Shown here: positions 22,875 through 47,204 of the stretch, one piece after another
Layout: each line of letters opens with the position of its first letter
Numbering within the stretch: position 1 is the first letter of the stretch
Source: Parvibaculum sp.
GTDB taxonomy: Bacteria; Pseudomonadota; Alphaproteobacteria; Parvibaculales; Parvibaculaceae
Assembly: GCF_030694575.1 (NCBI RefSeq)
Contig: NZ_JAUYUS010000064.1
Span: 28,338 to 92,337, forward strand
Direction: 5' to 3'
DNA length: 64,000 nt
Notes under the pieces: generated by a model
Told to the model about the DNA's origin: nothing
Databases searched by the model: none
What the model saw: the letters and a program-made list of their open reading frames with translations, nothing else
Made by a program: the position numbers and the translations under genes

Positions 22875-22906
22875 AACCCTGCCTGAACCTGCTTCGAGGC
22901 AGGGTT
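22875..22906 (-). terminator. hairpin between cysNC stop and galE start; terminator- or attenuator-like
   Basis: Perfect 10-bp stem aaccctgcct/aggcagggtt; minus strand reads AACCCTGCCT...AGGCAGGGTTTTCCATG. Confidence 0.55.
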
Positions 22907-28967: not shown

Positions 28968-28968
28968 C

Positions 28969-29400: not shown

Positions 29401-29436
29401 CGAAGCGGCGCGCGGAGCAACCCGCGCGCCGCGCTT

Positions 29437-29871: not shown

Positions 29872-29889
29872 GATGCCTCCTGTCGAGCG

Positions 29890-30411
29890 TCACATCTTCA
29901 TGCGCATCTTGCCGAGGAAATCTCCCTTGCCGATCTTCACGCCCTTTACGCGCAGGATGTCGTAGGCCGTGGTGGCGTGGAAATAGAAGTTCGGGAAGGA
30001 GAAGGAGAGCAGGAAATTCTCCGCCGTGAAGGGAAGCTGGTGCTTGCCGAGATGGAAGACGAGGTCCTTGCCCTGACAGGCGTTGAGCGCATCGGGCGTG
30101 ACCTTCCCGAAGCCCGCTATCGTGTCGTCGACGAGCTTCTGGAGATCGGCATAGGTGTAGGTACCGGGATCCTTGGGCGGATAAAAGGTGCCGCTTTGCG
30201 CGCCTTCGACGGCACCGAGCGAATGATGCGCGACGGATGCGATCTGGAAGCTGAAGGGCAGCATGTCGCCGACAAGGCAGGTCTTGACGATGTCGTTCGG
30301 GTCGGTGCCCTGCTCCTCACAGAAGGCGGCCCCCTTCTTCAGGAAGCCCGAGACGGCGCCGAGCGTTTGCAGGTAGTTCGGGACGGTGAGGTCGTAGAGC
30401 GAGAGCGACAT
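29890..30411 (-). CDS. DUF1993 domain-containing protein
   Basis: MSLSLYDLTVPNYLQTLGAVSGFLKKGAAFCEEQG; NFYFHATTAYDILRVKGVKIGKGDFLG. Confidence 0.9.
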   Translation of the reverse strand: MSLSLYDLTVPNYLQTLGAVSGFLKKGAAFCEEQGTDPNDIVKTCLVGDMLPFSFQIASVAHHSLGAVEGAQSGTFYPPKDPGTYTYADLQKLVDDTIAGFGKVTPDALNACQGKDLVFHLGKHQLPFTAENFLLSFSFPNFYFHATTAYDILRVKGVKIGKGDFLGKMRMKM

Positions 30412-30510
30412 GTCTTCCCCCTGGGTGCGGCGCTCCGACGGCGCGCTTGTTGCGATGGCGGATGCTGTACCGGCGGGTGCGAAAATTCAACAGTGCAGAA
30501 GAAGCGAAGA

Positions 30511-30560
30511 CCCCGGCCTTCGCCGGGGCAGGCGTGGATGGCCCGCGTAAAGCGGGCCAT
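30511..30560. repeat. double-hairpin intergenic repeat-like element
   Basis: ccccggccttcgccgggg followed by atggcccgc-gtaaa-gcgggccat. Confidence 0.7.
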
Positions 30561-30607
30561 GACGATTTTGGGTTGCGGCGCGGCTCCGCCCGGCGGTGAC
30601 CCTCCCG

Positions 30608-31462
30608 TCACTCGCTCCAGTTCATGCCTGCTTTCGTGGTGAGGAAGAGCGAGCCGTCGCGGTGGCTGCAGGGCATGTTTTCGAGGGCATGGACTTCCTG
30701 CCAGCCGGTCATCTGGGAGAACATCCGGATGCCGCCCTTGCCGTGGAGATGCTTGAAGACGATGGCGGCGTTTTCCGGCGTGCCGACTTCGAGCACCGCG
30801 TCCGTCGATTGCCAGGTTTCGAGCGGCAGGCCGGTGAGGAGGTCGGCTTCGTGGCCCTCGATATCGATCTTGGCGAGATCGGCCCAGGCGAGATGCGGTC
30901 CCGCGGCTTCGAGCGGCACCTCGATCGTGTCGAGCTCGCCGTAGGGCGCCGACTTCGCGCCCTTGATGTGGCTGCCCGTGGTATTGCCCAGCACACGGAC
31001 GAACTGCGCCGTGCCGTCCTCGAGAGAGACCGCCGCCTGATGAAGATCGGGTGAGACCTTGTTCAGCCCGCAATTGTAGCGGAAGCGGTCGGCATGGAGC
31101 TGGTCCGGCTCGAAGGAACGGACCTCGTAGCCGCAGCGCGAGAGGACGATGCTGTGAAGCCCGATATTGGCGCCGAAATCGACCACGCGGCGATAGCGCT
31201 TGCGGTTGGCGTGGTAGAAGGCGAAGAGGATGAGCTCGTCCATGCCGAAAAGATGCAGCGAATTGATCGCGCCCATTTCGAAATAGGGAAGAGAGAGAGC
31301 GCCGAAGGGACCGAAGGGATGACCCTCCTCCGCGACATCCCGGAAGCTCGAGGCGACCTCGACCGTCACGCTGCGCTGCAGGACGCGGTAGAGGGGATCG
31401 CGGGGGCTGTGCCGCGCGGCGATTTGCGGCAGCACCGAAAACAGGTCGTCGAAAAAATTCAT
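30608..31462 (-). CDS. FkbM family methyltransferase
   Basis: VVDFGANIGLHSIVLSRCGYEVRSFEPDQLHADRFRYNC; ADLAKIDIEGHEADLLTGL. Confidence 0.9.
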   Translation of the reverse strand: MNFFDDLFSVLPQIAARHSPRDPLYRVLQRSVTVEVASSFRDVAEEGHPFGPFGALSLPYFEMGAINSLHLFGMDELILFAFYHANRKRYRRVVDFGANIGLHSIVLSRCGYEVRSFEPDQLHADRFRYNCGLNKVSPDLHQAAVSLEDGTAQFVRVLGNTTGSHIKGAKSAPYGELDTIEVPLEAAGPHLAWADLAKIDIEGHEADLLTGLPLETWQSTDAVLEVGTPENAAIVFKHLHGKGGIRMFSQMTGWQEVHALENMPCSHRDGSLFLTTKAGMNWSE

Positions 31463-31510
31463 CTTGCCCTCTGGCGGTCAGGAAACGGGAGAGACGCGGG
31501 GCGCGTCTCG

Positions 31511-33307
31511 TCAGTCGATAGGTTCGAGCGATTTCGGCATCGGCGCGACGATCATGCTGGCGAGAAATTCCTCGCGCGGCAGCAGCGGCTCGGAATCCTC
31601 GATCGGATAGCCGAATTTCGATTGCGGATAGACGCCGTGATGCTCGCCGATCTCGACGTCGATGAAAACGGGGCCGTCATGCGCGAAGGCGGCCTTGAGA
31701 ATGCCGCCCGTGTCGGCCGAGGCCTTGAGCGAAAAGGTTTCGATTCCGCAGGAGCGCGCGAGCGCGGCGAAGTCCGGGAAGCCGAGGCCGGTTTCGGCGG
31801 AGGTGCCTGCATTGACGCCGCCGAGCCACTGGCCTTCCGTCTGCCGCACCATCGCATAGCCGCGATTGTTGAGGAGCACGATGCGGACCGGCAGCTTCAG
31901 ATAGGCGATGGTGGCGAGTTCCTGAAGGTTCATCATCAGGCTGCCGTCGCCGACGACGCAGAGCACGGGCGCGCGGCCGAGCGCGAGGGAGCCGGCCATC
32001 GCGGCGGGCAATGCCCAACCCATCGCCGTGTTGTTGAAGTCGTGATAGAGGCGCTGGCCGGGCTTCACGTCGAAGCCCTGCATGAGCCACGCGACCGCGC
32101 AGCCCGTGTCGGAAAAGATGTGCATGCCTTCCGGCGCAGCGGCGCTGAGGCGCTGCATCAGCGCATAAGGATCGATACGGGCATCGGCGCGGGCGGCATC
32201 CGTGCAGACGGGATAGGTTTTCTGCCAGCCCGCGATGCGCGCCTTCCACGCCGCGATGTCGGGCAGCGCGAGTTCGTTGGCCCGGGACTGGAGCGCGCGG
32301 ATGAAATCGCCCGCATCCGCCTCGATGGCGAGATCGAGCGTCTTGCCGAACTGCTCGAACTTGCCGAGTTCGGCGGCATCGAGATCGACGATGACGGTTT
32401 CCGCCCCGCGCGCCCAGCTCGACAGCGGCGAGCCGGTTTCGCGCGTGCTGAGACGCGCGCCGATGGCGATGACGAGATCGGCATTCTGCACGGCGAAATT
32501 GCCCGCGCGCGTGCCATGCGTGCCGAAGGTGCCGACGAAGCCGGCATTGCCGGCCGGCAGGATGTCGCGCGCGGCCCAGCTTGTGAGGACCGGAATGCCG
32601 GTGCGCTCCGCGAGGTCGCGGGCGATCTCGCTCGCGCCGGCAAGCCGGACGCCCCAGCCGAAGATCAGCACGGGCCGCTTCGCCGACTGCATCATGGCGA
32701 GGACCTGCGCGATGTCGTCCGGATCGATGGCGGGCGCGGATTTCTTCTCCGCCGCATCGGGCACGAAACCGGCGAGGTCGGCCGTTTCGATCATGGTGCG
32801 CTGGAGGTCGTCCGGGATGTCGATGAGGACGGGGCCCTGCCGCCCGCTCTTCGCCATGTAGAGCGCCTTCTCGAGTTCCTTGCGGATGTCGAGCGCGTCG
32901 AGAAGCTGCACGCAGTATTTTGTGATCGGCTTCACCATCGGCAGGATTTCGGTTTCCTGGAAACCGAACTGGCGAACCGCGCTTTCGCCCTTCATGCGGA
33001 AGGTCGTGACCTGGCCGGTGATGTAGAGCGCGGGCACGGAATCGAACCAGGCGCCGGCGATGCCCGTAATCATGTTGGTGGCGCCGGGGCCGCTGGTCGC
33101 GATGGCGCAGCCGATACCGCCGCCGACGCGCGAATAGGCCTCCGCCGCCATGGCGCCGGCCTGCTCGTGATGCGGGCAGATATATTCGATGCCGGGATTG
33201 TTGTGCAGCGAATGCAGCAGGTGGATGGAGGCGCCGCCCGACACGATGAAGGCATGGCGGATGCCGTTCCGCACGAGGAAATCGACGACGTAATCGGAGA
33301 GTTTCAT
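31511..33307 (-). CDS. thiamine-pyrophosphate enzyme, acetolactate-synthase-like
   Basis: HEQAGAMAAEAYSRVGGGIGCAIATSGPGATNMITGI; VVGDGSLMMNLQELATIAYLKLPVRIVLLNNRGYAMVRQ (ThDP motif). Confidence 0.92.
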   Translation of the reverse strand: MKLSDYVVDFLVRNGIRHAFIVSGGASIHLLHSLHNNPGIEYICPHHEQAGAMAAEAYSRVGGGIGCAIATSGPGATNMITGIAGAWFDSVPALYITGQVTTFRMKGESAVRQFGFQETEILPMVKPITKYCVQLLDALDIRKELEKALYMAKSGRQGPVLIDIPDDLQRTMIETADLAGFVPDAAEKKSAPAIDPDDIAQVLAMMQSAKRPVLIFGWGVRLAGASEIARDLAERTGIPVLTSWAARDILPAGNAGFVGTFGTHGTRAGNFAVQNADLVIAIGARLSTRETGSPLSSWARGAETVIVDLDAAELGKFEQFGKTLDLAIEADAGDFIRALQSRANELALPDIAAWKARIAGWQKTYPVCTDAARADARIDPYALMQRLSAAAPEGMHIFSDTGCAVAWLMQGFDVKPGQRLYHDFNNTAMGWALPAAMAGSLALGRAPVLCVVGDGSLMMNLQELATIAYLKLPVRIVLLNNRGYAMVRQTEGQWLGGVNAGTSAETGLGFPDFAALARSCGIETFSLKASADTGGILKAAFAHDGPVFIDVEIGEHHGVYPQSKFGYPIEDSEPLLPREEFLASMIVAPMPKSLEPID

Positions 33308-33331
33308 GCGCATGCGGTCTCTTCCTCCGGC

Positions 33332-34144
33332 CTAGTCGGCCGCGCGGCGGCGAAGGCGAAAATAATCGGGATGCCCGGCGAGGCGCGCGGCCAGATCCCG
33401 CCCGCCGTCGCGCCATGCGTCGTGGACGGTGGAGAAATTGCGGCCCCCCGCAACCTCCCGCCCCTGCATCATGCACCAGTTCATGTGGGAATATATCTCG
33501 TCGAGACTCGTTCCGCTCTCGCCCCTGTCGAGAAAATCCTTCGTCTTGCCGAGCGCGTCGCCCGCCGCCGCGCCCGCCCGCAGCGTTTCGTCGTGGATGC
33601 GGGTGCGGACATAGCCCGGTCCGACGATGAAGATGTTCGCGTCTTCCGTCTCGTCGTCGATCAGCTCGCACATCTTGATGAGGGCGATCTTGGACATGCA
33701 GTAGGCGGAATAATTCGTGAACGGATTGTTGGTGCCGCCGCCCGCCATCAGCATGATGTGGGGACGGGGCGCGCGGTGCGTCCAGAGCCCGTGCAGGACG
33801 CGGAGCTGCGCCGTCGAATTGACGGTGACGGAGCGCTCCCACAGGTCGAAGTCGAGATCGAAAAAGGGCCCGATCGGCTCCATCGTGCCGGCGCTGGAGA
33901 CGAAGAGGGACCATTTGTCGCCCGCCGCCGCGAAATCGCGAACGGCGGCGGCAATGCTTGCGGGCGAGGCGAGATCGCAGGCGATGAAACGGAAAGCGGG
34001 ATGGGAGGCGAGAGACGCGACGCGGGCAGCTTCGCGGCCCGCACCCGCGACGCGCCAGCCATCGGCAAGCAGCCGCTCGCAAAGGCCGAGACCGATATCC
34101 GCCGTGGCCCCGAGAACGAACGCCGTTTTGTTTTCTGCGGTCAT
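33332..34144 (-). CDS. SDR family oxidoreductase
   Basis: TAFVLGATADIGLGLCERLLADGWRVAGAGRE; NPFTNYSAYCMSKIAL (YxxxK). Confidence 0.88.
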   Translation of the reverse strand: MTAENKTAFVLGATADIGLGLCERLLADGWRVAGAGREAARVASLASHPAFRFIACDLASPASIAAAVRDFAAAGDKWSLFVSSAGTMEPIGPFFDLDFDLWERSVTVNSTAQLRVLHGLWTHRAPRPHIMLMAGGGTNNPFTNYSAYCMSKIALIKMCELIDDETEDANIFIVGPGYVRTRIHDETLRAGAAAGDALGKTKDFLDRGESGTSLDEIYSHMNWCMMQGREVAGGRNFSTVHDAWRDGGRDLAARLAGHPDYFRLRRRAAD

Positions 34145-34160
34145 GCGGGCTCGGCGTTCT

Positions 34161-35216
34161 CTAGTAGGGACCGGTGAAGCTCGGGTCGGGCGTGTCTTTC
34201 CAGCGGCGATCGGCGGCGGGTTTCGGCAGTTGCGCGGACGAACCGAGCGTGTCGAGCGCGGCCTGCGCGATGTCGGTCGCGTCCGGATAGAAAAGATCGG
34301 CGAGCGCGGGCGTGGTCGGCGTCGGGATATGCGGCAGGGCGACCGACTGCGGCGCGGCCTTGAGATAAGGGAAGGCGCGCTTCATCGCGACCGCCATGAC
34401 CTCCGCCACGACGCCGTAGCTCGCCTGGCCTGTGTCGGCGACAACCAGATGACCCGTCTTCGCGAGCGAGGCGGCGAGCGTGTCGCCGTCGATGGGGGTC
34501 AGGCAGCGGAGATCGATCACCTCCGCCGAGACGCCGGCAGCCGCGAGAAGGTCCGCCGCGCGCAAGGCTTCGATGGTCATGTGCGAGGTGGCGGCGATGG
34601 TGACGTCGCTGCCCTGGTGCAGAACTTCCGCGCCTTCGAGCGGCGAGGTGTAGAGCCCTTCGGGCACGGGGCCTTCGAGATTGTAGAGCCAGCGGTGCTC
34701 GAGAAAGATCACCGGCGCGTCGTCGCGCACGGCCGCGATCAGCATGCCCTTGGCGTCGTAGGGCCGCGTCGGCATGACGACCTTGAGGCCCGGCACATGC
34801 GCGAACCAGGATTGCAGCGACTGCGAATGCTGCGGCCCCTGCCCCCAGCCTCGCCCGATGATCATGCGGATGGTCAAGGGCGCGCGCATGACGCCGCCAT
34901 ACATGTAATGCCACTTCGCGGCCTGGTTGACGACCGGCTCCATGGAGAGGAGCGCGAAGTCGACGCGCATATGGACGAGGATCGGGCGCTTGCCCTGAAT
35001 GGCCGCACCGAGCGCGATGCCGGTCATGGCGTTTTCGGAGGACGGCGTGTCGATGACGCGCTCGGGCCCGAATTCTTCCTGCAGTCCTTTCGTGGTGCCG
35101 AAAATGCCGGTCGGTCCCGGCACGCCGAGACCCGCGACGAGCACGTTCGGATCGTCGGCGAGAAGTTCGCGATGCGCTTCGTGCAGGGCTTCGAAATATT
35201 TGAGCTGGCGGACCAT
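34161..35216 (-). CDS. 2-oxoacid dehydrogenase E1 beta-like (transketolase) subunit
   Basis: RVIDTPSSENAMTGIALGAAIQGKRPILVHMRVDFALLSMEPVVNQAAKWHYMYGG; GWGQGPQHSQSLQSWFAHVPGLKVVMP. Confidence 0.92.
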   Translation of the reverse strand: MVRQLKYFEALHEAHRELLADDPNVLVAGLGVPGPTGIFGTTKGLQEEFGPERVIDTPSSENAMTGIALGAAIQGKRPILVHMRVDFALLSMEPVVNQAAKWHYMYGGVMRAPLTIRMIIGRGWGQGPQHSQSLQSWFAHVPGLKVVMPTRPYDAKGMLIAAVRDDAPVIFLEHRWLYNLEGPVPEGLYTSPLEGAEVLHQGSDVTIAATSHMTIEALRAADLLAAAGVSAEVIDLRCLTPIDGDTLAASLAKTGHLVVADTGQASYGVVAEVMAVAMKRAFPYLKAAPQSVALPHIPTPTTPALADLFYPDATDIAQAALDTLGSSAQLPKPAADRRWKDTPDPSFTGPY

Positions 35217-35224
35217 GCGTACCT

Positions 35225-36235
35225 TCAGACCGGAAAGACGTGCTCGGAAAGCTCGGCGGCTTCCGGATAGGGGCTCGCCTTGGCGAAGGCGACGGCGGCG
35301 GCGACTTCATCCCGCGCCTTTTTCATCAGGTCCGCTTCGGCGGCGGCACCAAGCTCGCCGGCGGCGGCGAGGCGGTCGCGGTAGATCGCGAGCGGATCGC
35401 GTATGCGCCAGTCCGCAAGCTCCTCCGCCGTGCGGTAGCCGAGCGGAATATCGTCGCCGGGGCCGCAATGCTCCATCCAGCGATAGGTCATGCATTCGAT
35501 GAAGGACGGGCCCTCGCCGGCCCGCGCCCGCGCGACCGCTTCCGCCGCATGGGCATGGACGACATCGGCGTCGTTGCCGTCGCAGGTGACGGAGGGCATG
35601 CCATGCGCGGTGCCGAGCAGCGCGATGGGGCGGCCTTCGGGCTGGCGGATGTCCATCGCGGAATGAACGGAATAGAGATTGTTCTCGCAGACGAAGATGA
35701 CGGGAAGCTTGTGGACGGAGGCGAAATTGAGTGCCTCATGGAAGGTGCCCTCCTCCGTCGCACCGTCGCCGAAATAGACGATGCTGACCTGATCGCGGCG
35801 GTCGAGCTTCGCGGCCCAGGCGCTGCCGACGCCGACGGAAATCGTGCTGGAGAGGATCGGCGCCGCGCCCATGAAACCGCAGGCGAGATCGACCAGATGC
35901 TGGCTGCCGCCCTTGCCGCGCGCGCAGCCCGTGACGCGGCCATAGAGTTCGGCGAACATCGCGTTCATGTCGCCGCCCTTGGCGAGATAATGGCCGTGGC
36001 TGCGATGGCCGCTGAAGACGAGATCGTCGCGCGAGAGAAGGACGGAGATGCCGGCCGCGACCGCTTCCTGGCCGATGCAGAGATGGGTCGGGCAGCGGAT
36101 CTCGCCCTCGCCGTAAAGCGCGGCAATGGCCTCCTCGGCGAGGCGGACGCGGATCATGCTTTCGAGGACGGCAAGGCGCGTCTTCGCGTCCGGAAGGACG
36201 GCGGCCGCGCGGATGTCTTTCTGCTGCGTCGTCAT
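35225..36235 (-). CDS. 2-oxoacid dehydrogenase E1 alpha-like (ThDP) subunit
   Basis: GDGATEEGTFHEALNFASVHKLPVIFVCENNLYSVHS; THLCIGQEAVAAGI. Confidence 0.93.
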   Translation of the reverse strand: MTTQQKDIRAAAVLPDAKTRLAVLESMIRVRLAEEAIAALYGEGEIRCPTHLCIGQEAVAAGISVLLSRDDLVFSGHRSHGHYLAKGGDMNAMFAELYGRVTGCARGKGGSQHLVDLACGFMGAAPILSSTISVGVGSAWAAKLDRRDQVSIVYFGDGATEEGTFHEALNFASVHKLPVIFVCENNLYSVHSAMDIRQPEGRPIALLGTAHGMPSVTCDGNDADVVHAHAAEAVARARAGEGPSFIECMTYRWMEHCGPGDDIPLGYRTAEELADWRIRDPLAIYRDRLAAAGELGAAAEADLMKKARDEVAAAVAFAKASPYPEAAELSEHVFPV

Positions 36236-36951
36236 TCGCCCGCTCCTGCCGCCCGCGGCCATTCCCGGTTCGCCAGCGCAAGCGCCTCGGGCGAGCCGAT
36301 GTCCCTGTGATACCCCTCGATAGGGAATGTATATATGCGACCGGCGAGCCTTGGAATGATTTCGGTGCTGAAATCGACCACGGGCTTGCCAAGCGCGGCG
36401 GCGATATCGATCACATCAGGTTCCAGAATATAGACGGCGGCATTGGCGAGCCGGCCCGGCGGATTGGCCACTTTCTCGTGAAAGGCGGTCACGAGGCCCT
36501 CGCCGTCGCATTCGACGATACCGCAGCTTTGCGGGCTGTCGGTCTCGAACAGGGCCATGGTCATCAGGGCGGCCCGGGGGCGGCGCGCATGGGCCCGCTG
36601 GAAGGCCGCGATGTCGATATCGGTGAGATTGTCGGCATGGGCCATCAGCACGGCGCCCGTGCCCAGATGCTGACGGACATTGAGGAGCGTGCCGCCGGTG
36701 CCGAGAAGCTCTTCCTCATGGACGAGGGTAACCCTGTCGCGCCACGGGCTGGCGGCGACGAAGGCCTCGACCTGTTCCGCGAGGTAATGCGTATTGACGA
36801 CGGCATGCTCGACGGCATTGCCGGAGAACAGCCGGTCGAGCCAGAGGCCGAGAAGCGGCCGCCCGCCGATCGGCACCAGGCATTTCGGGATCGTGTCGGT
36901 GACGGGCCGGAGCCGCGTGCCGCGCCCGGCGGCGAGAAGAAGCGCCCTCAC
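36232..36951 (-). CDS. sugar-1-phosphate nucleotidyltransferase (HddC/RmlA-like), GTG start
   Basis: VRALLLAAGRGTRLRPVTDTIPKCLVPIGGRPLLGLWLDRLF; GTG at 36951 overlaps upstream stop. Confidence 0.88.
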   Translation of the reverse strand: MRALLLAAGRGTRLRPVTDTIPKCLVPIGGRPLLGLWLDRLFSGNAVEHAVVNTHYLAEQVEAFVAASPWRDRVTLVHEEELLGTGGTLLNVRQHLGTGAVLMAHADNLTDIDIAAFQRAHARRPRAALMTMALFETDSPQSCGIVECDGEGLVTAFHEKVANPPGRLANAAVYILEPDVIDIAAALGKPVVDFSTEIIPRLAGRIYTFPIEGYHRDIGSPEALALANREWPRAAGAGE

Positions 36952-38444
36952 AACCCGCCTCCGCCATTGGCGGCCGAAAGCCGGCCGAGAACGACGTCGC
37001 GCGTCAGCGGCGTGTTGCCGATGCGCGAGACCTGGCAGGCGGCGGAGACCGCGCCGAGAAGGCTGCTGCACCAGATGTCGCCGCCGGCCGCGAGCGCGAG
37101 CGAGGTGAGGCAGAAGAGCGAGTCGCCCGCCCCCGCCACATCCTTCGGAAACCGGTTGAGCGCCGGCAGGCGGTCGGTCACAAGGCCGCCATCGTGTTCG
37201 GCGCGGATCAGCAAGCCGTCGCCGCCAAGCGTGACGATGACGTTTTTCGCGTTGGCCGCCTCATGCAGGATTTCGCTGATGACGACGAGGCTCGACGTCT
37301 GGTCCTTGAGCGCCATGCGCGCTTCAAGCTCCGTCGGCGTGATGAGGTGCATGTTCCTGAAGCGCGAGATGTCGGAGAGCTGCGAGGAGGCCTGGCTGTC
37401 GGCGGCCATCATCACGCCGCGCGCGGCGGCAAGCTCGGTCAGCCGGGCGACGAAGGACGACGGCAGCGTGCCGTAATTGAAGTCGGAAAAGAGGACGAGG
37501 GAGGTCTCGTCGAGACGCGGTTCGATTTCGGCCAGAAGCCGCGCCGCGATCTCTTCCGAGATGGCGTGCTGACGCAAACGGCTGACGCGAAGGAGGGTCT
37601 TGCCCGCCGCGCGGAACCGCTGCTTGACGGTGGTCGGACGGCTCTCGTCCTCGACCAGCACGCATTCGACCGCATAGTCGCCGAACATCTTGCTGGCATA
37701 GGCACCGGCTTCGTCCTCGCCGACGACACCCAGGAAGGTGACCTTCGCGCCGAGACCGCGCGCATGGGCCGCGACGATGCCCGCGCCGCCGAGGAACCGC
37801 TTTTCGCTGATCGGCGTCACCACGATGGTCGGGTCTTCCTGCGACATGCCGAGCGGATCGCAATCGATATATTCGTCGACGATGATGTCGCCGACCACGA
37901 TGACGTTGACCTTCTCGACCGCGCGGGCGAGATCGCCGAGTGCCTGAACGCTGATCCCGTGACGCCGCATGTAGTCGCGCGGCAGGATGTCGTGCGCGGC
38001 GCCCTGCACTTCATCCGATTCGTCGAGCGGCGACATGGACGACTGAAGCATTTCGCCGGAACTGAAGATGAGCTTGCCGCCATATTGCGCGACGGCGGCG
38101 CGCTCCGGATTGTGCTGCTTCTCGTGTTCCTTTCCCTTGACGACGATGTCGGGCTTGAGCGCGGCGATCACATCCTCGATAGGATCGGCGATCTCGAAGG
38201 CATGCGTCACATTCTTGTTCGACATGACGCCTTCGAGACGCAGTTCCGCCGCAACGGAAACGCCCTCGGCAGAATCCGGGAGCACGCCGACGACGAGAAT
38301 GTCGCCCAGCTCGGCGGCGAAGCGCAGCAGACGGGTATGCCCCGGATGCAGCACATTGAATATGCCCGACACGAAGGCGACGGTGGCGCCCTCGCCAAGC
38401 TTTCCTCTCAGATGTGCGATCGGATCTTTCACGGTGTCAGACAT
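36948..38444 (-). CDS. cytidylyltransferase-PfkB kinase fusion (HldE-like, inverted domain order)
   Basis: N-terminal VAFVSGIFNVLHPGHTRLLRFA (HxGH); C-terminal PfkB FLGGAGIVAAHARGLGAKVTFLGVVGEDEAG and KDVAGAGDSLFC. Confidence 0.88.
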   Translation of the reverse strand: MSDTVKDPIAHLRGKLGEGATVAFVSGIFNVLHPGHTRLLRFAAELGDILVVGVLPDSAEGVSVAAELRLEGVMSNKNVTHAFEIADPIEDVIAALKPDIVVKGKEHEKQHNPERAAVAQYGGKLIFSSGEMLQSSMSPLDESDEVQGAAHDILPRDYMRRHGISVQALGDLARAVEKVNVIVVGDIIVDEYIDCDPLGMSQEDPTIVVTPISEKRFLGGAGIVAAHARGLGAKVTFLGVVGEDEAGAYASKMFGDYAVECVLVEDESRPTTVKQRFRAAGKTLLRVSRLRQHAISEEIAARLLAEIEPRLDETSLVLFSDFNYGTLPSSFVARLTELAAARGVMMAADSQASSQLSDISRFRNMHLITPTELEARMALKDQTSSLVVISEILHEAANAKNVIVTLGGDGLLIRAEHDGGLVTDRLPALNRFPKDVAGAGDSLFCLTSLALAAGGDIWCSSLLGAVSAACQVSRIGNTPLTRDVVLGRLSAANGGGGL

Positions 38445-39477
38445 CCGGATTGATTTCGACGACGGGACGGACCACCCGGCCCTGCTCCAGATCGTCGAGC
38501 GCGTCGTTGATGCGGTCCAGGCTGTAGCGGCGGGAGACCAGACGCTCCAGCGGCAGCTTGCCGGACCTGTAGAGCGCCGCGAAGGCGGGAATGTCGCGGT
38601 CGATATCCGAACCGCCGCCCCAGCTTCCGCGTATCTGCTTGCCGCTGATGAGGGCGTGGGGATCGAGCGCGATCTTGTCGCCGGTCGCGGGATGAGAGGC
38701 GAAAATGGTGATGCCCGTGCGATGCGTCGCCTCGAAGGCCTGTTCGATGACGCGGGCGACACCCGAGGCATCCACCGAATAGTCGACGCCAGCGCCGCCG
38801 GTTTCCTGCCGGATGGCCGCGACGGGATCGGCGGTGCGCGCATTGACGGTGACGTGAGCGCCGAGCGAGGCGGCAAGCGCCAGCTTCTCGTCCGACACGT
38901 CGACCGCGATTACCTTCGCGAAATCGTGCATGGCGCAAGCCATGAGCGCGCACATGCCGATGCCGCCGACGCCGAACACGGCGATCGTCGTGCCTGGGCG
39001 CGGCTGAAGCTCGTGCAGCACGAGACCGGCTCCCGTCGGCATGGCGCAGCCGAACAGCACGGCGACATCGAGCGGCACCCCTTCCGGCAGGAGCGTGACG
39101 CGGTTTTCGGAGACAATGGTCTCGTCGCTGAAGGTGGTGACGCCGCCTGCATTGATGAGTTCGTCGCCGTGAAGATACTGGCAGCCGCCGGCATCGGCAC
39201 CTGTGCCCTTGATCCAGCTCAGCACGACGAGATCGCCCGGTTTTACCTTGGAGACGTCCTCGCCGACCCGCATGACACGACCCGTCGCTTCATGGCCGAG
39301 CATGTGTGGCAGCCAGTTGTCGGCGCCGCGGCGGCCGCGCGCTTCCATCACCTGGCTGTGGCAGACGCCGGTGAACGCGACGCGGACGAGCACCTGCGCG
39401 GGCTTCAGCGGCGGCACCGCTATCCCGTCGACAAGCGCCAGCGGCGCCCCCAGTTCTCTCAGCACAGCAGCCTTCAT
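38437..39477 (-). CDS. MDR-family zinc-type alcohol dehydrogenase
   Basis: MKAAVLRELGAPLALVDGI; TGVCHSQVMEARGR; LGHEATGRVMRVGEDV; VFGVGGIGMCALM. Confidence 0.88.
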   Translation of the reverse strand: MKAAVLRELGAPLALVDGIAVPPLKPAQVLVRVAFTGVCHSQVMEARGRRGADNWLPHMLGHEATGRVMRVGEDVSKVKPGDLVVLSWIKGTGADAGGCQYLHGDELINAGGVTTFSDETIVSENRVTLLPEGVPLDVAVLFGCAMPTGAGLVLHELQPRPGTTIAVFGVGGIGMCALMACAMHDFAKVIAVDVSDEKLALAASLGAHVTVNARTADPVAAIRQETGGAGVDYSVDASGVARVIEQAFEATHRTGITIFASHPATGDKIALDPHALISGKQIRGSWGGGSDIDRDIPAFAALYRSGKLPLERLVSRRYSLDRINDALDDLEQGRVVRPVVEINPDV

Positions 39478-39517
39478 CTCAGGCCTTGTCTCCCCAACTG
39501 TCGGCTTCTTCCCTTCC

Positions 39518-39684
39518 ACCCTCCCCCTGTGGGAGGGTCAAACCGCTGCAAGCGGTTTGGGGAGGGGTTACGACAGAAAGCACAAATAGAGTCGATAACG
39601 CGTTCATCGTGTTGTCGCGGCGTCCCCCTCCCAGAAAAATCCGTGCTTCGCTCGAATTTTTCGACCCTCCCACAGGGGGAGGGT
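39518..39684. repeat. composite intergenic repeat with 22-nt perfect terminal inverted repeats
   Basis: accctccccctgtgggagggtc (39518-39539) and its reverse complement gaccctcccacagggggagggt (39663-39684); internal aaccgctgcaagcggtt hairpin. Confidence 0.85.
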
Positions 39685-39717
39685 ATGACGAAGAAAGCTT
39701 GTAGCAAGCCGCATGGT

Positions 39718-40377
39718 TCACGGAATGAACCAGTAGTAGTCGCCGTCGTAACCGACCTCCTCGAAGAAGGTGACCCACTCATCGACCGACATGATCGTCT
39801 TCGCCGTCAGGTTCCATTTGAACATGCGGTCTTTTTCATTGTCGTCGCGGTAGGCATCAACCGTGATATAGGCGCCCTTGCGCGCGACGCGCGAGATTTC
39901 GCGCAGCGCGGTCGCGCAGTCGTCGCGGTCGAGATTGTGGACCGTGTTAATCGAGATGACGACATCGAAGCTGTTATCCTCGAAGGGCAGTTCGCGCGCA
40001 TCGGCGACCTGCACATGCGGCCGCATGTCCTCGATGGCGTTTTCTATCGCATAGGCCGAGACGTCGACGCCCTTCACGGTGATGCCGGGAATGAGCTCCG
40101 CCATGTCGTGCATCATGAAGCCCTTGGCGCAGCCGACATCGAGCACGGAGCTTTTTTCCGTCAGCCCCCAATGGGACTGGAATGTCGGAATGACGGGCTG
40201 CCAGAAACGCGGCATGTAATTGAAGCCGCCATAACCGTGGCGCCGCTCGCCGTCGAAGAATTCCTTGCCGAAGCGCCGCGCAACGGCGCGATCCTCCTCG
40301 GTTTTCTCCTGTCCCCGCTCGTCGACATTACGCTTGGTGCGCGGATAATTGACGAGAAGATCGATTTCGCGACCCAT
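39718..40377 (-). CDS. class I SAM-dependent methyltransferase
   Basis: KSSVLDVGCAKGFMMHDMAELIPGITVKGVDVSAYAI; FDVVISINTVHNL. Confidence 0.88.
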   Translation of the reverse strand: MGREIDLLVNYPRTKRNVDERGQEKTEEDRAVARRFGKEFFDGERRHGYGGFNYMPRFWQPVIPTFQSHWGLTEKSSVLDVGCAKGFMMHDMAELIPGITVKGVDVSAYAIENAIEDMRPHVQVADARELPFEDNSFDVVISINTVHNLDRDDCATALREISRVARKGAYITVDAYRDDNEKDRMFKWNLTAKTIMSVDEWVTFFEEVGYDGDYYWFIP

Positions 40378-40386
40378 GAACACTCC

Positions 40387-41379
40387 TCAGGGTTTGTGCT
40401 GGTAATGCTGCGGCGACGCCTTGAGCGCTTCGAGATGCGCCTTCACCCAGCCGATGGTCTGCTCGACACCTTCCTCGATGCCGATCCTGTCGGACCAGCC
40501 GAGTTCGCCGCGCAGCTTCGATGAGTCGAGCATGTAGGACTGGTCCTTGCCGAGACGTTCGCCGACGATCTCCACGCAATCCTCGAACTTCATGCCGAGG
40601 CGGGTGAGGACCAGCGCAACGAGATCGCGGATCGTGATCTGCTCGTTGGTCGAAATGTGATAGGTGGCGCCGGGCTCGCCGCGCTCCGCGATCATGCGCG
40701 TCGCCTCGGAAACGTCGTCGATGTGAATGAAGGAACGCGCCGAATGGCCGCCGCCGTGAAGCTGCAGCTTCTGGCCGGTAAGCGCGAAGAGGATGGTGCG
40801 CGGGATGATCCTGTAGAGCTGCTGGCCAGGCCCGTAGACATTCGCCGCGCGTGTGGAGACGACCGGAAATCCGTAAGCCTTGAAATAGGAGGCGAGGCTC
40901 ATGTCGCCCGCCGCGCGCGACACGGCATAAGGCGTGCTCGGATTGAAGGCATGATCTTCCTTCACCCACCCGCCGGTGCTGCCATAGACTTCCGGCGTCG
41001 TGACGTGAACGTAGCGGTCGAGATAATCGAGGTGGCGCAGGCGTTCATGCAGGCGGACGGCGGAGACGACGTTGGTCATCATCCAGTGGTCGGGGTTCTG
41101 CCAGCTTTCCGCGACCATGCTCTGCGCCGCGAAATTCGCTATGACGGAGGGCTTCGTCTCCGCGAGAAGCGCGTCGAGCGCATCGAGATCCGTGTTGAGG
41201 TCGATCCGCTGGAACCGGAAACGGCCCGGCTGCTTTTTCCAGGCATAGGGACGGAAGGGCAACGCCACTTCCTCCGACCGGCTGACGCCGACGACGTCCT
41301 GCCCGCGCGCAAGCAAATGATCGACGAAGCTCGCACCTGAAAAGGAATTCGAGCCGATGACGAGAAAGGTGGAAGTCAC
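40387..41379 (-). CDS. NAD-dependent epimerase/dehydratase (GDP-mannose 4,6-dehydratase-like), GTG start
   Basis: FLVIGSNSFSGASFVDHLLARGQDVVGVSRS; TTPEVYGSTGGWVKEDHAFNPSTPYAVSRAAGDM. Confidence 0.88.
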   Translation of the reverse strand: MTSTFLVIGSNSFSGASFVDHLLARGQDVVGVSRSEEVALPFRPYAWKKQPGRFRFQRIDLNTDLDALDALLAETKPSVIANFAAQSMVAESWQNPDHWMMTNVVSAVRLHERLRHLDYLDRYVHVTTPEVYGSTGGWVKEDHAFNPSTPYAVSRAAGDMSLASYFKAYGFPVVSTRAANVYGPGQQLYRIIPRTILFALTGQKLQLHGGGHSARSFIHIDDVSEATRMIAERGEPGATYHISTNEQITIRDLVALVLTRLGMKFEDCVEIVGERLGKDQSYMLDSSKLRGELGWSDRIGIEEGVEQTIGWVKAHLEALKASPQHYQHKP

Positions 41380-41969
41380 GTCCGCACGTCCCCGACGTCG
41401 TTACGCCGCGAGAAGAGATACTGCAACACCATGTTGCAGACGATCATCTGCAGGTCTTCGGCGATCTGCATGTCGTCGATGTCGAAATGGATCGGATGAT
41501 CGGCGAGCGCCTTGGCGCGGCCGCCGTCGAAGGCAAGGATGGCGAAGCTCTCGACGCCCATCCGCTTCGCCTCTTCGAGCACGGCAAGGATGTTCTTCGA
41601 ATTGCCGCTGCCGGAAAAGACGATCAGAAGATCGCCGGGATTGGCGAGGACGGCAAGCTGCGCCGAGAAGACCTTGTCGTAGCCCTCGTCGTTCGCAAGG
41701 CATGTGAGCGTCGCCGCATTGGCGCTCAGCGCATGAACGCGAATGCCCGAGCCGATGATCTTCGAGACCGGATAGAGGAAATCGTTGGCGAGATGATTGG
41801 CATTGCCGGCGCTGCCGCCATTGCCCGCGAGAAAGACCTGCCGTTTCTCTTTCCAGCACGCCATCATCGCATCGGCAAGCGGCGTGATGCGGTTCCAGTC
41901 GGTGGCCTGGAGAACGCCGCCGAGACGGGTGGCGTAGCTTTCGAAAGTGTCGATGGCGGCGGCCATCAT
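41376..41969 (-). CDS. SIS domain protein (GmhA / sedoheptulose-7-phosphate isomerase-like)
   Basis: VFLAGNGGSAGNANHLANDFLYPV; DLLIVFSGSGNSKNILAVLEEAKRMG. Confidence 0.85.
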   Translation of the reverse strand: MMAAAIDTFESYATRLGGVLQATDWNRITPLADAMMACWKEKRQVFLAGNGGSAGNANHLANDFLYPVSKIIGSGIRVHALSANAATLTCLANDEGYDKVFSAQLAVLANPGDLLIVFSGSGNSKNILAVLEEAKRMGVESFAILAFDGGRAKALADHPIHFDIDDMQIAEDLQMIVCNMVLQYLFSRRNDVGDVRT

Positions 41970-42904
41970 GCAACTCCCTTGAGCTGCATCCATTTGAGGT
42001 TGTGGAACTGCGGCTCGTTCTTCAGCTCGCCCGCATTATAGGCGGCGACGATTTCGGCAATCGCGTCGCGCACGGTCTTCTTCGGACGGAAGCCGGTGGC
42101 GAGAAGCCGGTCGGAATTCAGCCGGTAGGAGCGCGGGTCGTTCGATTCCGTCGTGACGATTTCCGACGGCACATATTCGGCGACCGTCATCGCGATATCC
42201 ATGATCGACATGTTCTCGAAGCCGGCGTTGTAGACGCCCGTCACATGCGGATTGTCGAGCAGGAAGATGTAGAGATCGGTGATGTCGTCCATGTGGATGT
42301 TGGGCCGCGTCTGGTCGCCGCCGAACACCGTGATGCGCCGGTTCTCCAGCGCGTGCATGGTGAGAAGGTTGACCGACACGTCGAGCCGCATGCGCGGCGA
42401 GAGCCCGCAGACCGTCGCCGGACGCACGATCTGCACCGACATGTCGTCCGAATAGGAAAGCAGGATGCGCTCGGCACACATCTTCGTCTTGTTGTATTCG
42501 GAGATCGGCTTCAGCTCGAGGTCTTCGGTAACCTGGTCTTCGTCCTTGACGCCGTAGACGCTGCCCGACGACGCATAGATGAAACGGCCGACGCCCGCGC
42601 GCACCGCCTTGTCGGCGAGCCGCATCGTGGCGAGCGCGCTCACCTCCCAGGTGAGCTTCGGATTGAGGTCGCCGCAGGGATCGTTGGCGATGCTGGCGAG
42701 ATGGATGATGGCGTCGTAGCCGGCGAGATCGATATTCTCGGTGTCGCGGACGTCGCCCTCGACAATGCGGAGCGCATCATGCTGCGGCAGGTAGTTGCCG
42801 AACCACAATGTATCGAGAGCCGTAACCGAATGTCCCTGCGCCAGCAGCTTGGGAACGAGGCACGTTCCCTTGTAGCCGCAGGCGCCCGTAACGAGAACTT
42901 TCAC
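41966..42904 (-). CDS. NAD-dependent sugar epimerase, GTG start
   Basis: VKVLVTGACGYKGTCLVPKLLAQGHSVTALDTLWFG; YASSGSVYGVKDEDQVTEDLELKPISEYNKTKM. Confidence 0.9.
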   Translation of the reverse strand: MKVLVTGACGYKGTCLVPKLLAQGHSVTALDTLWFGNYLPQHDALRIVEGDVRDTENIDLAGYDAIIHLASIANDPCGDLNPKLTWEVSALATMRLADKAVRAGVGRFIYASSGSVYGVKDEDQVTEDLELKPISEYNKTKMCAERILLSYSDDMSVQIVRPATVCGLSPRMRLDVSVNLLTMHALENRRITVFGGDQTRPNIHMDDITDLYIFLLDNPHVTGVYNAGFENMSIMDIAMTVAEYVPSEIVTTESNDPRSYRLNSDRLLATGFRPKKTVRDAIAEIVAAYNAGELKNEPQFHNLKWMQLKGVA

Positions 42905-43002
42905 AATCCCACCCCGAATGCTCTTTCGCCCCTTGCGACTCTTTAGTATCAGCAGTTCACGAAAGCGGCAACACACCGTAGAATGCGTCAAATATCCAGA
43001 TT

Positions 43003-44322
43003 ATGAAAGCTGTCCGGATGCGGGATGTGCCGATGCGACGAGAGGGAACAACTGTACTCCCTCCCCATTCGGACAATATTAATGCGGTATATGCAGACCG
43101 GCAGGCGAAACCGAAACCGCCGACGCTTGCCCGCGGGCTGGGACGGGCTGCGGGCCGCGCCGGGCAGCGGCTGCTCGATCTGATTTATGCGCCCTTCGCC
43201 CTCCTGCTCCGGCTTGCCGGGTACCGCTTCGTCATCATATCGAATCCGGACCGGATCGGCCACCTGGCGGCGGAAGTCGACAACTATCTGAAACAGATCG
43301 AACTGGGCGAGATCGCGCCCGCCAGAGCTCTTCTCCTGCTCAAGCGGGGCAAGCTCGCCAACCGGGCCGTGCTCGAGATGTGGGAGCGACACATCACCGT
43401 CATATCCGGTGGATTTCTCCGCCCGCTTCTCAAACCCTTTCTCCGCTTTCCTTTCATAACGATGAAACTGGGCACCGCCGTGCTCGGCATCGACACGGCC
43501 GCCACCTATCAGACCACGTTGCGGCGCTGGCAGGGCCGCCCGCCGGTCGCGCGGCTGTCCGGCGAACTTGTCGCCCGCGCGCGCGCCGACCTCGCCCGCA
43601 TGGGACTGCCGGAAAATGCCTGGTATGTCTGCATCCATTCGCGCGAAGGCGGCTACTCGCCGCGCGACGAACACGTCCACGAATACCGCAACAGCGACAT
43701 CGAGACCTGCACGCTCGCCATGGACGAGATCCTGGCGCGGGGCGGCTACTGCCTTCGCATGGGCGATACGACGATGGCGAAGCTGGCGCCGAAACCGGGC
43801 GTCATCGACTATGCGACGTCGGCGTTCAAGAGCGACTATCTCGATCTCTATCTCTGCGCGAATACCCGTTTCTTTCTCGGCAATACTTCCGGGCTTTGCA
43901 TCCTTTCGACGATCTTCAACCGGCCGTCGGTGCTGGTGAACATGATTCCCCACGGCGCCTGTTACAGCTCCGCCCCGGGCGACATCTCCATTCCCAAAAA
44001 GCTGTGCGACACGGAAAGAAAGCTGCTGCATTTCCCCGATATATTCGCGAGTGCCGCCGCGAGCTTCCGGCATGCCGGGCTCTATCGCGAGCACGGCATC
44101 GGCATCGTCGACAATACGCCGGAGGAAATCCGCGACGCAGCGGCCGAGATGCTGGACCGGCTCGACGGGACATTCACCGCGACGGCGGAGGACGAGGCGA
44201 GGCAGGAACGTTTCCGGGGATTTCTGCAGCCGCACCATTATTGCTACGGCGCAACATCGCGGATCGGCCGCGACTTCCTGCGGCAGCACGCGGCGTTGCT
44301 GGAACCGTCCGGCGACCGCTGA
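43003..44322 (+). CDS. TIGR04372-like glycosyltransferase
   Basis: WYVCIHSREGGYSPRDEHVHEYRNSDIETCTLAMDEILARGGYCLRMGDTTMAKL; FFLGNTSGLCILSTIFNRPSVLVNMIPHG. Confidence 0.75.
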   Translation: MKAVRMRDVPMRREGTTVLPPHSDNINAVYADRQAKPKPPTLARGLGRAAGRAGQRLLDLIYAPFALLLRLAGYRFVIISNPDRIGHLAAEVDNYLKQIELGEIAPARALLLLKRGKLANRAVLEMWERHITVISGGFLRPLLKPFLRFPFITMKLGTAVLGIDTAATYQTTLRRWQGRPPVARLSGELVARARADLARMGLPENAWYVCIHSREGGYSPRDEHVHEYRNSDIETCTLAMDEILARGGYCLRMGDTTMAKLAPKPGVIDYATSAFKSDYLDLYLCANTRFFLGNTSGLCILSTIFNRPSVLVNMIPHGACYSSAPGDISIPKKLCDTERKLLHFPDIFASAAASFRHAGLYREHGIGIVDNTPEEIRDAAAEMLDRLDGTFTATAEDEARQERFRGFLQPHHYCYGATSRIGRDFLRQHAALLEPSGDR

Positions 44323-44326
44323 AAAG

Positions 44327-44401
44327 TGGTGAGCCCTGATGGGATCGAACCATCGACCTACTGATTAAAAGTCAGCCGCTCTACCGCTGAGCTAAGGGCC
44401 C
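44327..44401 (-). tRNA. tRNA-Lys (anticodon TTT), CCA encoded
   Basis: Reverse complement GGGCCCTTAGCTCAGCGGTAGAGCGGCTGACTTTTAATCAGTAGGTCGATGGTTCGATCCCATCAGGGCTCACCA; 7-bp acceptor, D, anticodon and T arms readable. Confidence 0.96.
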
Positions 44402-44654
44402 GCCGGAAAGGCGGAAAACGCGACCGCCTCTCGAAAGGTGGGCGGAACTTAAGGGGCGCGTCCCATGGGGTCAACAGCGGATGGCGCCCGGGCCAAGTCC
44501 TTTTGTCGCCTCGTCTTTTCAGTTCCGTTGAATTTGCCGCGCCCATGCCGGAGCGAATCCCCCGCACAGCGGAGCGGCAGCCCGCCGACCATGGAACCCA
44601 TTGAGCCGCCCAACCGTTCGAAAGAGAGACCTTCTGGACGCATGGGGGAGCTTC

Positions 44655-47201
44655 ATGACGGAGACACAGCGGACCGGCCGCCCGCAGACCGACTGGTGGA
44701 TCCCCGAAAAACCCCGGCGCGGCATCGGCTGGTGGTGGAGCGGCGTCATCGGCGCCGTGATCACGCTGACGGGACTTCTGCTCGCAGGGGGCGGCATCTG
44801 GCTCCTCGCACTGGGCGGCTCCTGGTACTACGCCATCGTCGGGATCGCACTCGTAGCCGCGGGCATCCTGATGATGTTCCACGACATGGCGGGGCTCTGG
44901 ATCTACCTCGCGGCCTGGGTTTTCACCCTCGCCTGGGCCTGGTGGGAAGCGGGTATGGATGTCTGGGCGCAGGTGCCGCGCCTCGTCGCACCGACCGTGC
45001 TGCTCCTGCTGGTGCTGAGTGCGATACCGGGCCTGCGCCGCCCCCCGATCGAACGGCGCTATCCCCCCGGCGCGGTGCTCGGCGTTCTTGTGCTGCTGGG
45101 TCTCGGCGGCGCGCTGCTGCTGCGCGACGTGGCCCCGCCCGCGTTCGCGAATGGCGGCGAAAAGCGCGAAAGCATGGCGCCGGTGCCGGACGGAGAGAGC
45201 GGAGACGAAAACATCGACATGCCGCCCGAAGTGACCCCCGCACCGACCACGGCGGTGGATCAGGGTCGCATCCTCACCGCCGGGGCCGACTGGCCGGTCT
45301 ATGGTGGCTCCAACCTCGCAACGCGTCACTCGCCGCTGAAGCAGATCACGCCGAAGAATGTCTCGCGGCTGCAGGAGGTCTGGCGCGTCCGCACGGGCGA
45401 CATGCCGAGCGAGACGGCAAAAGGCGAATACTCGCCGGAAAACACGCCGCTCAAGATCGGCAGCCGGCTCTATCTCTGCACGGCCAAGAACATCATGATC
45501 GCCCTCGACGCGGCGACGGGCGAGGAAATCTGGCGCCACGACCCGGAGGTGTCCGATGCGGCCATCCCCTATGGCGCGACCTGCCGGGGCGTCGCCTATC
45601 ACGAGGTACCGCAGGCGGCGGCGGGCGAGACCTGCGCCGCGCGCGTCATGGAGGCGACGCTGGACGCGCGTCTTATCGCCGTCGATGCCGAGACGGGCGC
45701 GCCCTGCCCCGGCTTTGGCGAGAACGGTACGGTCGATCTCAACGAAGGCATCGGAGAGACGGTGCCCGGCTGGTATTCGGTGACGTCGCCGCCAACCATC
45801 GTGCGCGGCATCGCCGTCGTCGGCTCGCAGGTGAAGGACGGACAGGCCGAAGATGCGCCCTCGGGCGTCATCCGCGGCTATGACGCGGTGACGGGCGAAC
45901 TCGCCTGGGCCTGGGACATGGGCCGGCCGGACCGCAAAGGCGCGCCGCCCGAAGGGGAGACCTATACACGCGGCACGCCCAACATGTGGACGATCGCCGC
46001 CAGCGACAGCGCGCTCGGTCTCGTCTACCTGCCGATGGGCAATTCCTCCATCGACTACTGGGGCGGCAACCGCGCCGACTACGAAAACGAATACAGCACC
46101 TCGCTCGTAGCGCTGGACGTGACGACGGGCGACGTCGCCTGGCATTTTCAGACGGTTCACTACGACATCTGGGACTACGATCTCGGTTCGCAGCCGACGC
46201 TGATCGATCTGCCTACGGAAGATGGAGCGGTGCCCGCGCTGATCCTGTCGAGCAAGCAGGGACCAATCTATGTGCTGAACCGCGAGACGGGCGAGCCGCT
46301 CTTTCCGGTGGAGGAGCGGCCGGTGCCGACCGGCGGCGTCGAGCCCGAGAACCTGTCGCCGACGCAACCCTATTCAAGCTATGCGACGCTGAGCAAGGAG
46401 AGGCTCACCGAAAGCGACATGTGGGGCATGACGCCGCTGGACCAGCTCTGGTGCCGCATCGAATTTCGTCGCGCGTCCTACAAGGGCGAATACACGCCGC
46501 CGACCGCCGACCGGCGCTATATCCAGTATCCGGGCTATAATGGCGGCTCGGACTGGGGCAGCGTTGCCGTCGACAGGGAACGCGGCATCCTGATCGCGAA
46601 CTATAACGACATGCCGAATTTCAACCGCCTGATCCCGCGCGCGGAAGCAGACGCGATGGGCCTGAAGCCGATCAACGAAGGCGGCGGCGAGGAAGGCGAA
46701 AAGGGAACCAGCAGCCGCCGCACGGAAGGCGAAGGCGACGCGCAGGCGGGCGCACCCTACGCGATCCACGTCAATGCCGGCTGGCGGATGCCGACGGGCC
46801 TTCTGTGCAAGAAGCCGCCTTATGGCCATATCCGCGCCATCGAACTTGCAACCGGCAAGACGATCTGGGACCGGCCGTTCGGCAGCGCCGAGAACAACGG
46901 CCCCTTCGGCATTCCGACGCGGCTGCCCTTCACCATCGGAACGCCGAACAATGGCGGCCCGCTGCTGACGGCGGGCGGGCTGATCTTCATCGCCGCGACG
47001 ACGGACGACAAGTTCCGCGCCATCGACATCGCGACGGGCGAGACGCTGTGGGAGACGGGCTTGCCGGCGGGCGGGCAGACGACGCCGATCACGTATGAGG
47101 TCGACGGAAGGCAATACGTCGTCATCGCGCCGGGCGGGCATCACTTCATGGAAACGAAGATCGGCGACTACGTGATCGCCTATGCGCTGCCGAAAGAGTG
47201 A
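44655..47201 (+). CDS. membrane-bound PQQ-dependent dehydrogenase (glucose/quinate/shikimate family)
   Basis: N-terminal TM segments; DWPVYGGSNLATRHSPLKQITPKNVSRLQEVWRVRTGD; HYDIWDYDLGSQPTLIDL. Confidence 0.93.
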   Translation: MTETQRTGRPQTDWWIPEKPRRGIGWWWSGVIGAVITLTGLLLAGGGIWLLALGGSWYYAIVGIALVAAGILMMFHDMAGLWIYLAAWVFTLAWAWWEAGMDVWAQVPRLVAPTVLLLLVLSAIPGLRRPPIERRYPPGAVLGVLVLLGLGGALLLRDVAPPAFANGGEKRESMAPVPDGESGDENIDMPPEVTPAPTTAVDQGRILTAGADWPVYGGSNLATRHSPLKQITPKNVSRLQEVWRVRTGDMPSETAKGEYSPENTPLKIGSRLYLCTAKNIMIALDAATGEEIWRHDPEVSDAAIPYGATCRGVAYHEVPQAAAGETCAARVMEATLDARLIAVDAETGAPCPGFGENGTVDLNEGIGETVPGWYSVTSPPTIVRGIAVVGSQVKDGQAEDAPSGVIRGYDAVTGELAWAWDMGRPDRKGAPPEGETYTRGTPNMWTIAASDSALGLVYLPMGNSSIDYWGGNRADYENEYSTSLVALDVTTGDVAWHFQTVHYDIWDYDLGSQPTLIDLPTEDGAVPALILSSKQGPIYVLNRETGEPLFPVEERPVPTGGVEPENLSPTQPYSSYATLSKERLTESDMWGMTPLDQLWCRIEFRRASYKGEYTPPTADRRYIQYPGYNGGSDWGSVAVDRERGILIANYNDMPNFNRLIPRAEADAMGLKPINEGGGEEGEKGTSSRRTEGEGDAQAGAPYAIHVNAGWRMPTGLLCKKPPYGHIRAIELATGKTIWDRPFGSAENNGPFGIPTRLPFTIGTPNNGGPLLTAGGLIFIAATTDDKFRAIDIATGETLWETGLPAGGQTTPITYEVDGRQYVVIAPGGHHFMETKIGDYVIAYALPKE

Positions 47202-47204
47202 GGC

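Follow-up and report, generated by a model that had tools for sequence, protein, structure and literature searches.

Why should an operon that otherwise resembles a sugar-nucleotide pathway encode two kinds of thiamine diphosphate (ThDP)-dependent enzymes, one similar to the E1 component of pyruvate dehydrogenase (PDH) and the other to acetohydroxyacid synthase (AHAS)? The question is raised by a 64,000-nucleotide stretch (hereinafter, the window) of the 3.8-Mb genome of a Parvibaculum sp., in which twelve minus-strand genes at positions 30608-42904, denoted here EPI (start at 42904), SIS, GDPdh, MT, MDR, CTkin, NTase, E1a, E1b, SDR, AHAS-like and FkbM (end at 30608), form an apparent operon next to a divergent glycosyltransferase gene. 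We consider it fairly probable that these genes are responsible for the synthesis and transfer of a nucleotide-activated, carbon-branched and methylated higher sugar, probably with a heptose scaffold. A modified or branched sugar had been suggested in the first-pass annotation of this DNA; the present analysis supports that suggestion, and the two classes of ThDP enzymes supply a branching mechanism that the annotation lacked.

A scan of a species-level genome collection with E1b yielded 495 relatives, the best 80 of which (51-75% identity) were kept and compared with 20 control loci encoding the housekeeping PDH E1 in related genomes. Most of the 80 loci come from metagenome-assembled genomes, so that individual taxon labels are unsure, and several of the contigs are short, so that all neighborhood counts are lower bounds. 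Genes for E2, E3 and LipA are found at none of these loci, compared to 19, 16 and 17 of the 20 control loci, respectively; because all three are missing throughout, the E1a-E1b pair does not belong to a pyruvate or other 2-oxoacid dehydrogenase complex. In the E1b tree, the operon-type set is separated from the housekeeping PDH E1-beta with support of 99/96. The same loci encode relatives of GDPdh (62 of the 80), CTkin (56), EPI (55), MT (49), SIS (35), MDR (24), AHAS-like (21), SDR (21), FkbM (15), the glycosyltransferase (15) and NTase (10), whereas none of the control loci carries operon-type genes, with the exception of a single AHAS-like gene. The co-occurrence of the gene set is far above chance, and the neighborhood check that had been proposed for it comes out in its favor. 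The labels of these loci span more than 12 phyla, among them Pseudomonadota, Acidobacteriota, Chloroflexota, Planctomycetota, Verrucomicrobiota, Chlamydiota and Cyanobacteriota, and further Nitrospirota, Nitrospinota, Myxococcota, Elusimicrobiota, Calditrichota and Actinomycetota. Going by family names only, one could envisage ordinary central metabolism, that is, a second PDH E1 and an acetolactate synthase that lie among glycan genes. Such an interpretation is scarcely credible, given the lack of E2 and E3 at all 80 loci, the co-occurrence across phyla, the presence of a separate PDH E1-beta (C94) and AHAS (C62) in the same genome, and trees that set both proteins apart from the housekeeping ones; the controls, namely the E2, E3 and LipA counts, the neighborhoods, and the E1b and AHAS trees, refute a housekeeping dehydrogenase or AHAS.

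For the AHAS-like protein, the best structure match is 8rph (5e-101) and the second best is 5ahk, which we take to be PpYerE, both ahead of plant AHAS. The former structure is that of JanthE (PMC12188165). In a phylogenetic tree that includes some long branches, the AHAS-like protein falls together with these two, JanthE and 5ahk, to the exclusion of the host's own AHAS and other family members, with support of 99/97. Judging from this tree, the protein is a YerE-like carboligase, a member of the ketone-accepting class, rather than a housekeeping AHAS. The conserved AHAS arginine (R291 in this protein) does not discriminate between the two, being retained in 8 of 24 sequences and in 5ahk but lost in JanthE.

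The E1 pair invites comparison with antibiotic biosynthesis. In avilamycin and paulomycin biosynthesis, E1-alpha/beta pairs are the proposed source of the acetyl branches of keto sugars, and KbDH-alpha/beta joins pyruvate and ketones in vitro (PMC12247030; PMC4753412; PMC4425429). Only two mechanisms, AviB1/AviB2 and YerE, have been named for two-carbon sugar branches (PMC4425429). The pair in the window displays the features of the alpha-keto acid dehydrogenase 2 (alpha-KADH2, AviB1/AviB2 type) class: it occurs without E2 and E3, its ThDP residues are intact, and it is embedded in a cluster of nucleoside diphosphate (NDP)-sugar genes. Glu61 and His130 of E1b and His265 of E1a, which have catalytic roles in E1 enzymes, are invariant in about 100 sequences. 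By analogy, and going by gene context and these residues, the best reading is that E1a and E1b belong to the class of enzymes that add carbon branches to keto sugars. Two Streptomyces E1 pairs inspected in plasmid records for comparison with the antibiotic enzymes are not in recognizable sugar clusters. As classified here, a single operon combines both ThDP branching classes, the E1-alpha/beta class of antibiotics and the YerE-like class of lipopolysaccharide (LPS).

The gene set is conserved in several arrangements. All twelve families are found together, in a different order, at a Chloroflexota locus (L079), and three other loci (L066, L095 and L102) encompass eleven families each. The first nine genes in the window order, along with the same divergent glycosyltransferase, are present in L051, where an epimerase-type gene and a methyltransferase gene take the place of SDR, AHAS-like and FkbM; the block E1a-E1b-SDR-AHAS-FkbM is found in L057 and likewise in L054. 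Because these two blocks exist separately, the operon in the window is a join of parts known elsewhere. The L051 contig (WNWL01000003.1) is labeled Oceanobacillus, yet has 70% G+C and alphaproteobacterial-type genes and is probably mislabeled or contaminated. The commonest labeled gene directly upstream of E1a is EPI (20 of the 80 loci). In six loci, L070, L073, L077, L096, L153 and L160 (an Azospirillum oryzae plasmid), a DegT aminotransferase gene, often together with a radical SAM gene, comes after E1b, which possibly represents an amino-sugar variant of the pathway. This arrangement parallels the reduction, methylation or transamination reported for the acetyl branches of antibiotics (PMC12247030). 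The literature searched, which did not take in the most relevant survey, contains no description of this gene combination and no exact match to a characterized cluster.

The ThDP component itself looks exchangeable. In the same-family relatives G003, G007 and G038, EPI, SIS and GDPdh (56-74% identity) are followed by a split transketolase. Among 12 loci identified through the cytidylyltransferase (CTase)-PfkB fusion alone, 10 contain a ThDP pair (a split transketolase in eight and E1-alpha/beta in two), compared to none of 20 canonical HldE loci. At L034 (3696-5491), L035 (6155-7917), L181 and L045-L049, the split transketolase lies beside EPI, SIS and the fusion, where other loci have E1-alpha/beta. 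This pattern of replacement fits ThDP-dependent branching of a keto sugar.

Such branching calls for a ketone, and EPI is the candidate source. Its best structure match, 6vo6 (1e-37), which we take to be Cj1427, is 13 orders of magnitude ahead of the next structure (1e-24), and the two proteins share the stretch SPRMRLD. Cj1427 is a GDP-heptose C4-dehydrogenase that makes GDP-4-keto-heptose, and the best reading of EPI is a C4-dehydrogenase-like enzyme that would yield a 4-keto sugar; it fits upstream of branching because ThDP enzymes that branch sugars require such a C4 ketone. The name epimerase in the first-pass annotation is thus superseded. The label GDP-sugar dehydratase for GDPdh also has to be loosened: the Asp of the RmlB-type (dTDP-glucose 4,6-dehydratase) triad is replaced by Pro (Thr-Pro-Glu), which is found in 39 of 42 homologs. 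Dehydratase activity is still conceivable because GDP-mannose dehydratases likewise lack this Asp.

With respect to the scaffold, heptose-pathway or mannose-1-phosphate enzymes are the nearest relatives of SIS, the kinase domain of CTkin and NTase, all three of which score well below the curated cut-offs. The domain order of CTkin is the reverse of that in HldE, and the HldE scores are 183 bits versus 345 and 53.5 versus 181.5. As the first-pass annotation pointed out, there is no GmhB-type phosphatase in the operon. A GmhB homolog, with a score below the curated cut-off, is encoded beside a canonical HldE on contig C101, with a GmhA-like gene close by, and this chromosomal heptose locus can, to judge from its gene content, supply the phosphatase step in trans; the missing phosphatase was accordingly rejected as a flaw of the scheme. 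A heptose scaffold is likely but unproven, being weakened by changed GmhA residues in SIS. Of the interpretation first put forward, the sugar operon, the association of heptose-type with ThDP enzymes and the conservation of the gene set hold, in contrast to the assigned identities of EPI, GDPdh and GmhA; heptose-type activation itself retains its nearest relatives but falls short in the GmhA residues and curated score, which leaves the scaffold plausible.

From these assignments we infer a pathway, including its substrates, order of steps, product and destination. SIS would act on a ketose phosphate (sedoheptulose 7-phosphate or a similar compound) to give an aldose phosphate, which would be phosphorylated at C1 by the PfkB domain; GmhB of the chromosomal locus would remove the terminal phosphate, and NTase and/or the CTase domain would add the nucleotide. 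Following oxidation at C4 by EPI, the keto sugar would be carbon-branched by the two ThDP enzyme classes, with the YerE-like enzyme forming a second C-C bond, either at another ketone, perhaps made by MDR, or by use of a longer keto acid. Reduction of the new branch by SDR would follow, MT and FkbM would methylate the sugar, and the TIGR04372 glycosyltransferase would transfer it. More tentatively, and with considerable doubt, one can envisage a widespread exchangeable pathway to doubly ThDP-branched heptoses of at least 9 carbons, in which the choice between E1-alpha/beta and split transketolase determines whether an acetyl or a hydroxyacetyl branch is placed at the first ketone and the YerE-like enzyme adds the second branch.

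Several observations weigh against a ThDP-branched heptose, and two rival schemes draw on them. The branched sugar could be built on a non-heptose scaffold, such as a hexose, octose or pentose, with SIS and the kinase acting on another sugar phosphate. SIS scores 95 bits against the NCBIfam gmhA cut-off of 209, and at the GmhA active-site positions Glu65 and Gln172 (Escherichia coli numbering) its family carries Asp and Glu, respectively. In the window, moreover, SIS has Asn at the position of His180, which is retained as His by close relatives and GmhA, so that its activity is possibly altered or lost. These changes, the low scores of SIS, kinase and NTase against heptose cut-offs, and the presence of a full canonical heptose set elsewhere in the genome all agree with another scaffold; nevertheless, among characterized relatives, SIS, the kinase, NTase and EPI are all nearest to heptose enzymes, and we regard this alternative as rather unlikely. 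The identification of EPI relies on our equating 6vo6 with Cj1427 (the papers confirm a published Cj1427 structure, without its entry code), and the role of GDPdh, which may be a reductase, epimerase or dehydratase, is ambiguous.

The other rival moves the ThDP enzymes to the beginning of the pathway, where they would extend rather than branch a sugar phosphate, producing an unusual long-chain ketose phosphate that would subsequently be activated by SIS, the kinase and the nucleotidyltransferase. The split transketolases that replace E1-alpha/beta in related clusters, and the transaldolase genes that adjoin EPI in 10 loci, fit sugar-phosphate chemistry as well as branching, and SIS-type isomerases use ketose phosphates. 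However, E1-alpha/beta adjoins the NDP-sugar enzymes EPI and GDPdh more often than SIS, a 1-deoxy ketose derived from pyruvate would be an abnormal substrate for SIS, and the substrates of the YerE class are keto sugars. Early action of the ThDP enzymes hence appears improbable, to about the same degree as a non-heptose scaffold, and branching of an activated keto-heptose is the reading that we favor.

The operon and the glycosyltransferase gene constitute an island (Table 1) that contains no further evident gene. In G013, the closest congener, window positions 26002-30491 and 44301-49135 align contiguously with 12 bp between them; nine further congeners have the tRNA-Lys and tgt region there, and no operon genes were found at the site in any of the ten. 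In searches of 98 related genomes (97 besides the host), E1b had no relative at more than 53% identity and the AHAS-like protein none at more than 38%. Where relatives of the operon carry a name, the closest are mostly alphaproteobacterial. Given the empty site in congeners and the lack of close E1b and AHAS-like relatives in these genomes, it is probable that the thirteen genes moved together as a functional unit. The island ends beside tRNA-Lys, but a search of its ends for flanking tRNA-type direct repeats found none and no integrase was seen with it. Approximately 6 kb from the island, at 22905-24824, the window encodes a CysN/CysC-type sulfate activation fusion (EF-Tu-type GTPase and APS kinase).

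Within the operon, Pfam and NCBIfam domain searches confirmed all twelve families named in the first-pass annotation, as well as the divergent glycosyltransferase. The genes are mostly tightly packed and likely share a single transcript. After refinement of the starts, the reported overlaps of about 4 nt are borne out at four junctions (EPI/SIS, SIS/GDPdh, CTkin/NTase and NTase/E1a), an overlap of 8 nt is found at MDR/CTkin, and five junctions are gaps of 3-48 nt. A single large gap, which separates MT from MDR by 240 nt, is occupied by a palindromic repeat of about 180 bp (CCCTCCCCC...GGGAGGG ends) that is dispersed in the host genome.

Table 1. Features of the island and its insertion site (window positions)
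Feature	Position	Strand	Remarks
EPI: SDR-extended, C4-dehydrogenase-like (Cj1427/6vo6-like)	41966..42904	-	Pfam Epimerase; best structure match 6vo6
SIS: GmhA-like sugar phosphate isomerase, altered active-site residues	41376..41969	-	Pfam SIS_2; NCBIfam gmhA
GDPdh: NDP-sugar dehydratase/epimerase-like SDR, Thr-Pro-Glu for Thr-Asp-Glu	40387..41379	-	
MT: class I SAM-dependent methyltransferase	39718..40383	-	found at 49/80 related loci
Dispersed palindromic repeat copy, MT-MDR gap	39500..39717	-	97 matching pieces genome-wide, one inside the operon
MDR: zinc-type medium-chain dehydrogenase	38437..39477	-	
CTkin: cytidylyltransferase-like domain, then PfkB/HldE-like kinase domain	36948..38444	-	HPGH and GAGD motifs conserved
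NTase: sugar-1-phosphate nucleotidyltransferase (mannose-1-P guanylyltransferase/HddC-like)	36232..36951	-	
E1a: ThDP enzyme, E1-alpha-like subunit	35225..36235	-	catalytic residues conserved; no E2/E3 nearby
E1b: ThDP enzyme, E1-beta-like subunit	34161..35216	-	set apart from PDH E1-beta in tree
SDR: classical short-chain dehydrogenase/reductase	33332..34144	-	beside E1b or AHAS in related loci
AHAS-like: YerE-like ThDP carboligase	31511..33313	-	best structure match JanthE 8rph; tree
FkbM: FkbM-family methyltransferase, final operon gene	30608..31462	-	
Glycosyltransferase, TIGR04372 family, divergent from operon	43003..44322	+	same divergent position in L051
Whole island, 13.8-kb insertion	30492..44320	.	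ends approximate; G013 alignment contiguous on both sides
tRNA-Lys (TTT) adjoining island	44327..44401	-	same tRNA at empty site in ten congeners

The operon thus joins the two literature routes to two-carbon branches, E1-like pairs of antibiotics and YerE of LPS, with heptose-type activation, in a compact island whose gene set recurs across phyla. If the proposed pathway is correct, bacterial envelopes contain carbon-branched higher sugars much more commonly than the record shows, and the operon offers carboligase sets that are ready for use in the production of chiral tertiary alcohols; a doubly branched product would be a so far undescribed class of surface sugars. With E1-alpha/beta and split transketolase taking each other's place at related loci, the proposed but unproven part of split transketolases in the branching of sugars can be put to the test.

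Leads to the possible kind of product come from bacterial envelopes, in which higher sugars with branches and partial O-methylation occur, namely caryophyllose-like and 3-O-methylated C4-branched sugars (Mycobacterium marinum, Rhodopseudomonas palustris) and bradyrhizose. Compared by gene context, AviB1/AviB2, Pau11/Pau12 and KbDH of the alpha-keto acid dehydrogenase 2 class resemble the window pair in the lack of E2/E3, the adjoining NDP-sugar genes and the reductase, methyltransferase or aminotransferase genes that follow, whereas the window pair differs in belonging to a glycan-type operon with heptose-type activation that is found mostly in Gram-negative phyla. The YerE, ErwE and JanthE systems (yersiniose and erwiniose of LPS) are linked to the window by the tree and by the adjacent SDR as a candidate branch reductase, but the window has an E1-type pair alongside, and its operon lacks CDP-3,6-dideoxyhexose genes. 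The GDP-heptose pathway of Campylobacter jejuni (GmhA, kinase, GmhB, HddC, Cj1427 and C4-reductases) shares the types of activation steps and the presumed closest relative of EPI; the window differs in the CTase-kinase fusion, GmhB only in trans and the altered SIS and, where C. jejuni has an epimerase and a C4-reductase, encodes ThDP carboligases instead.

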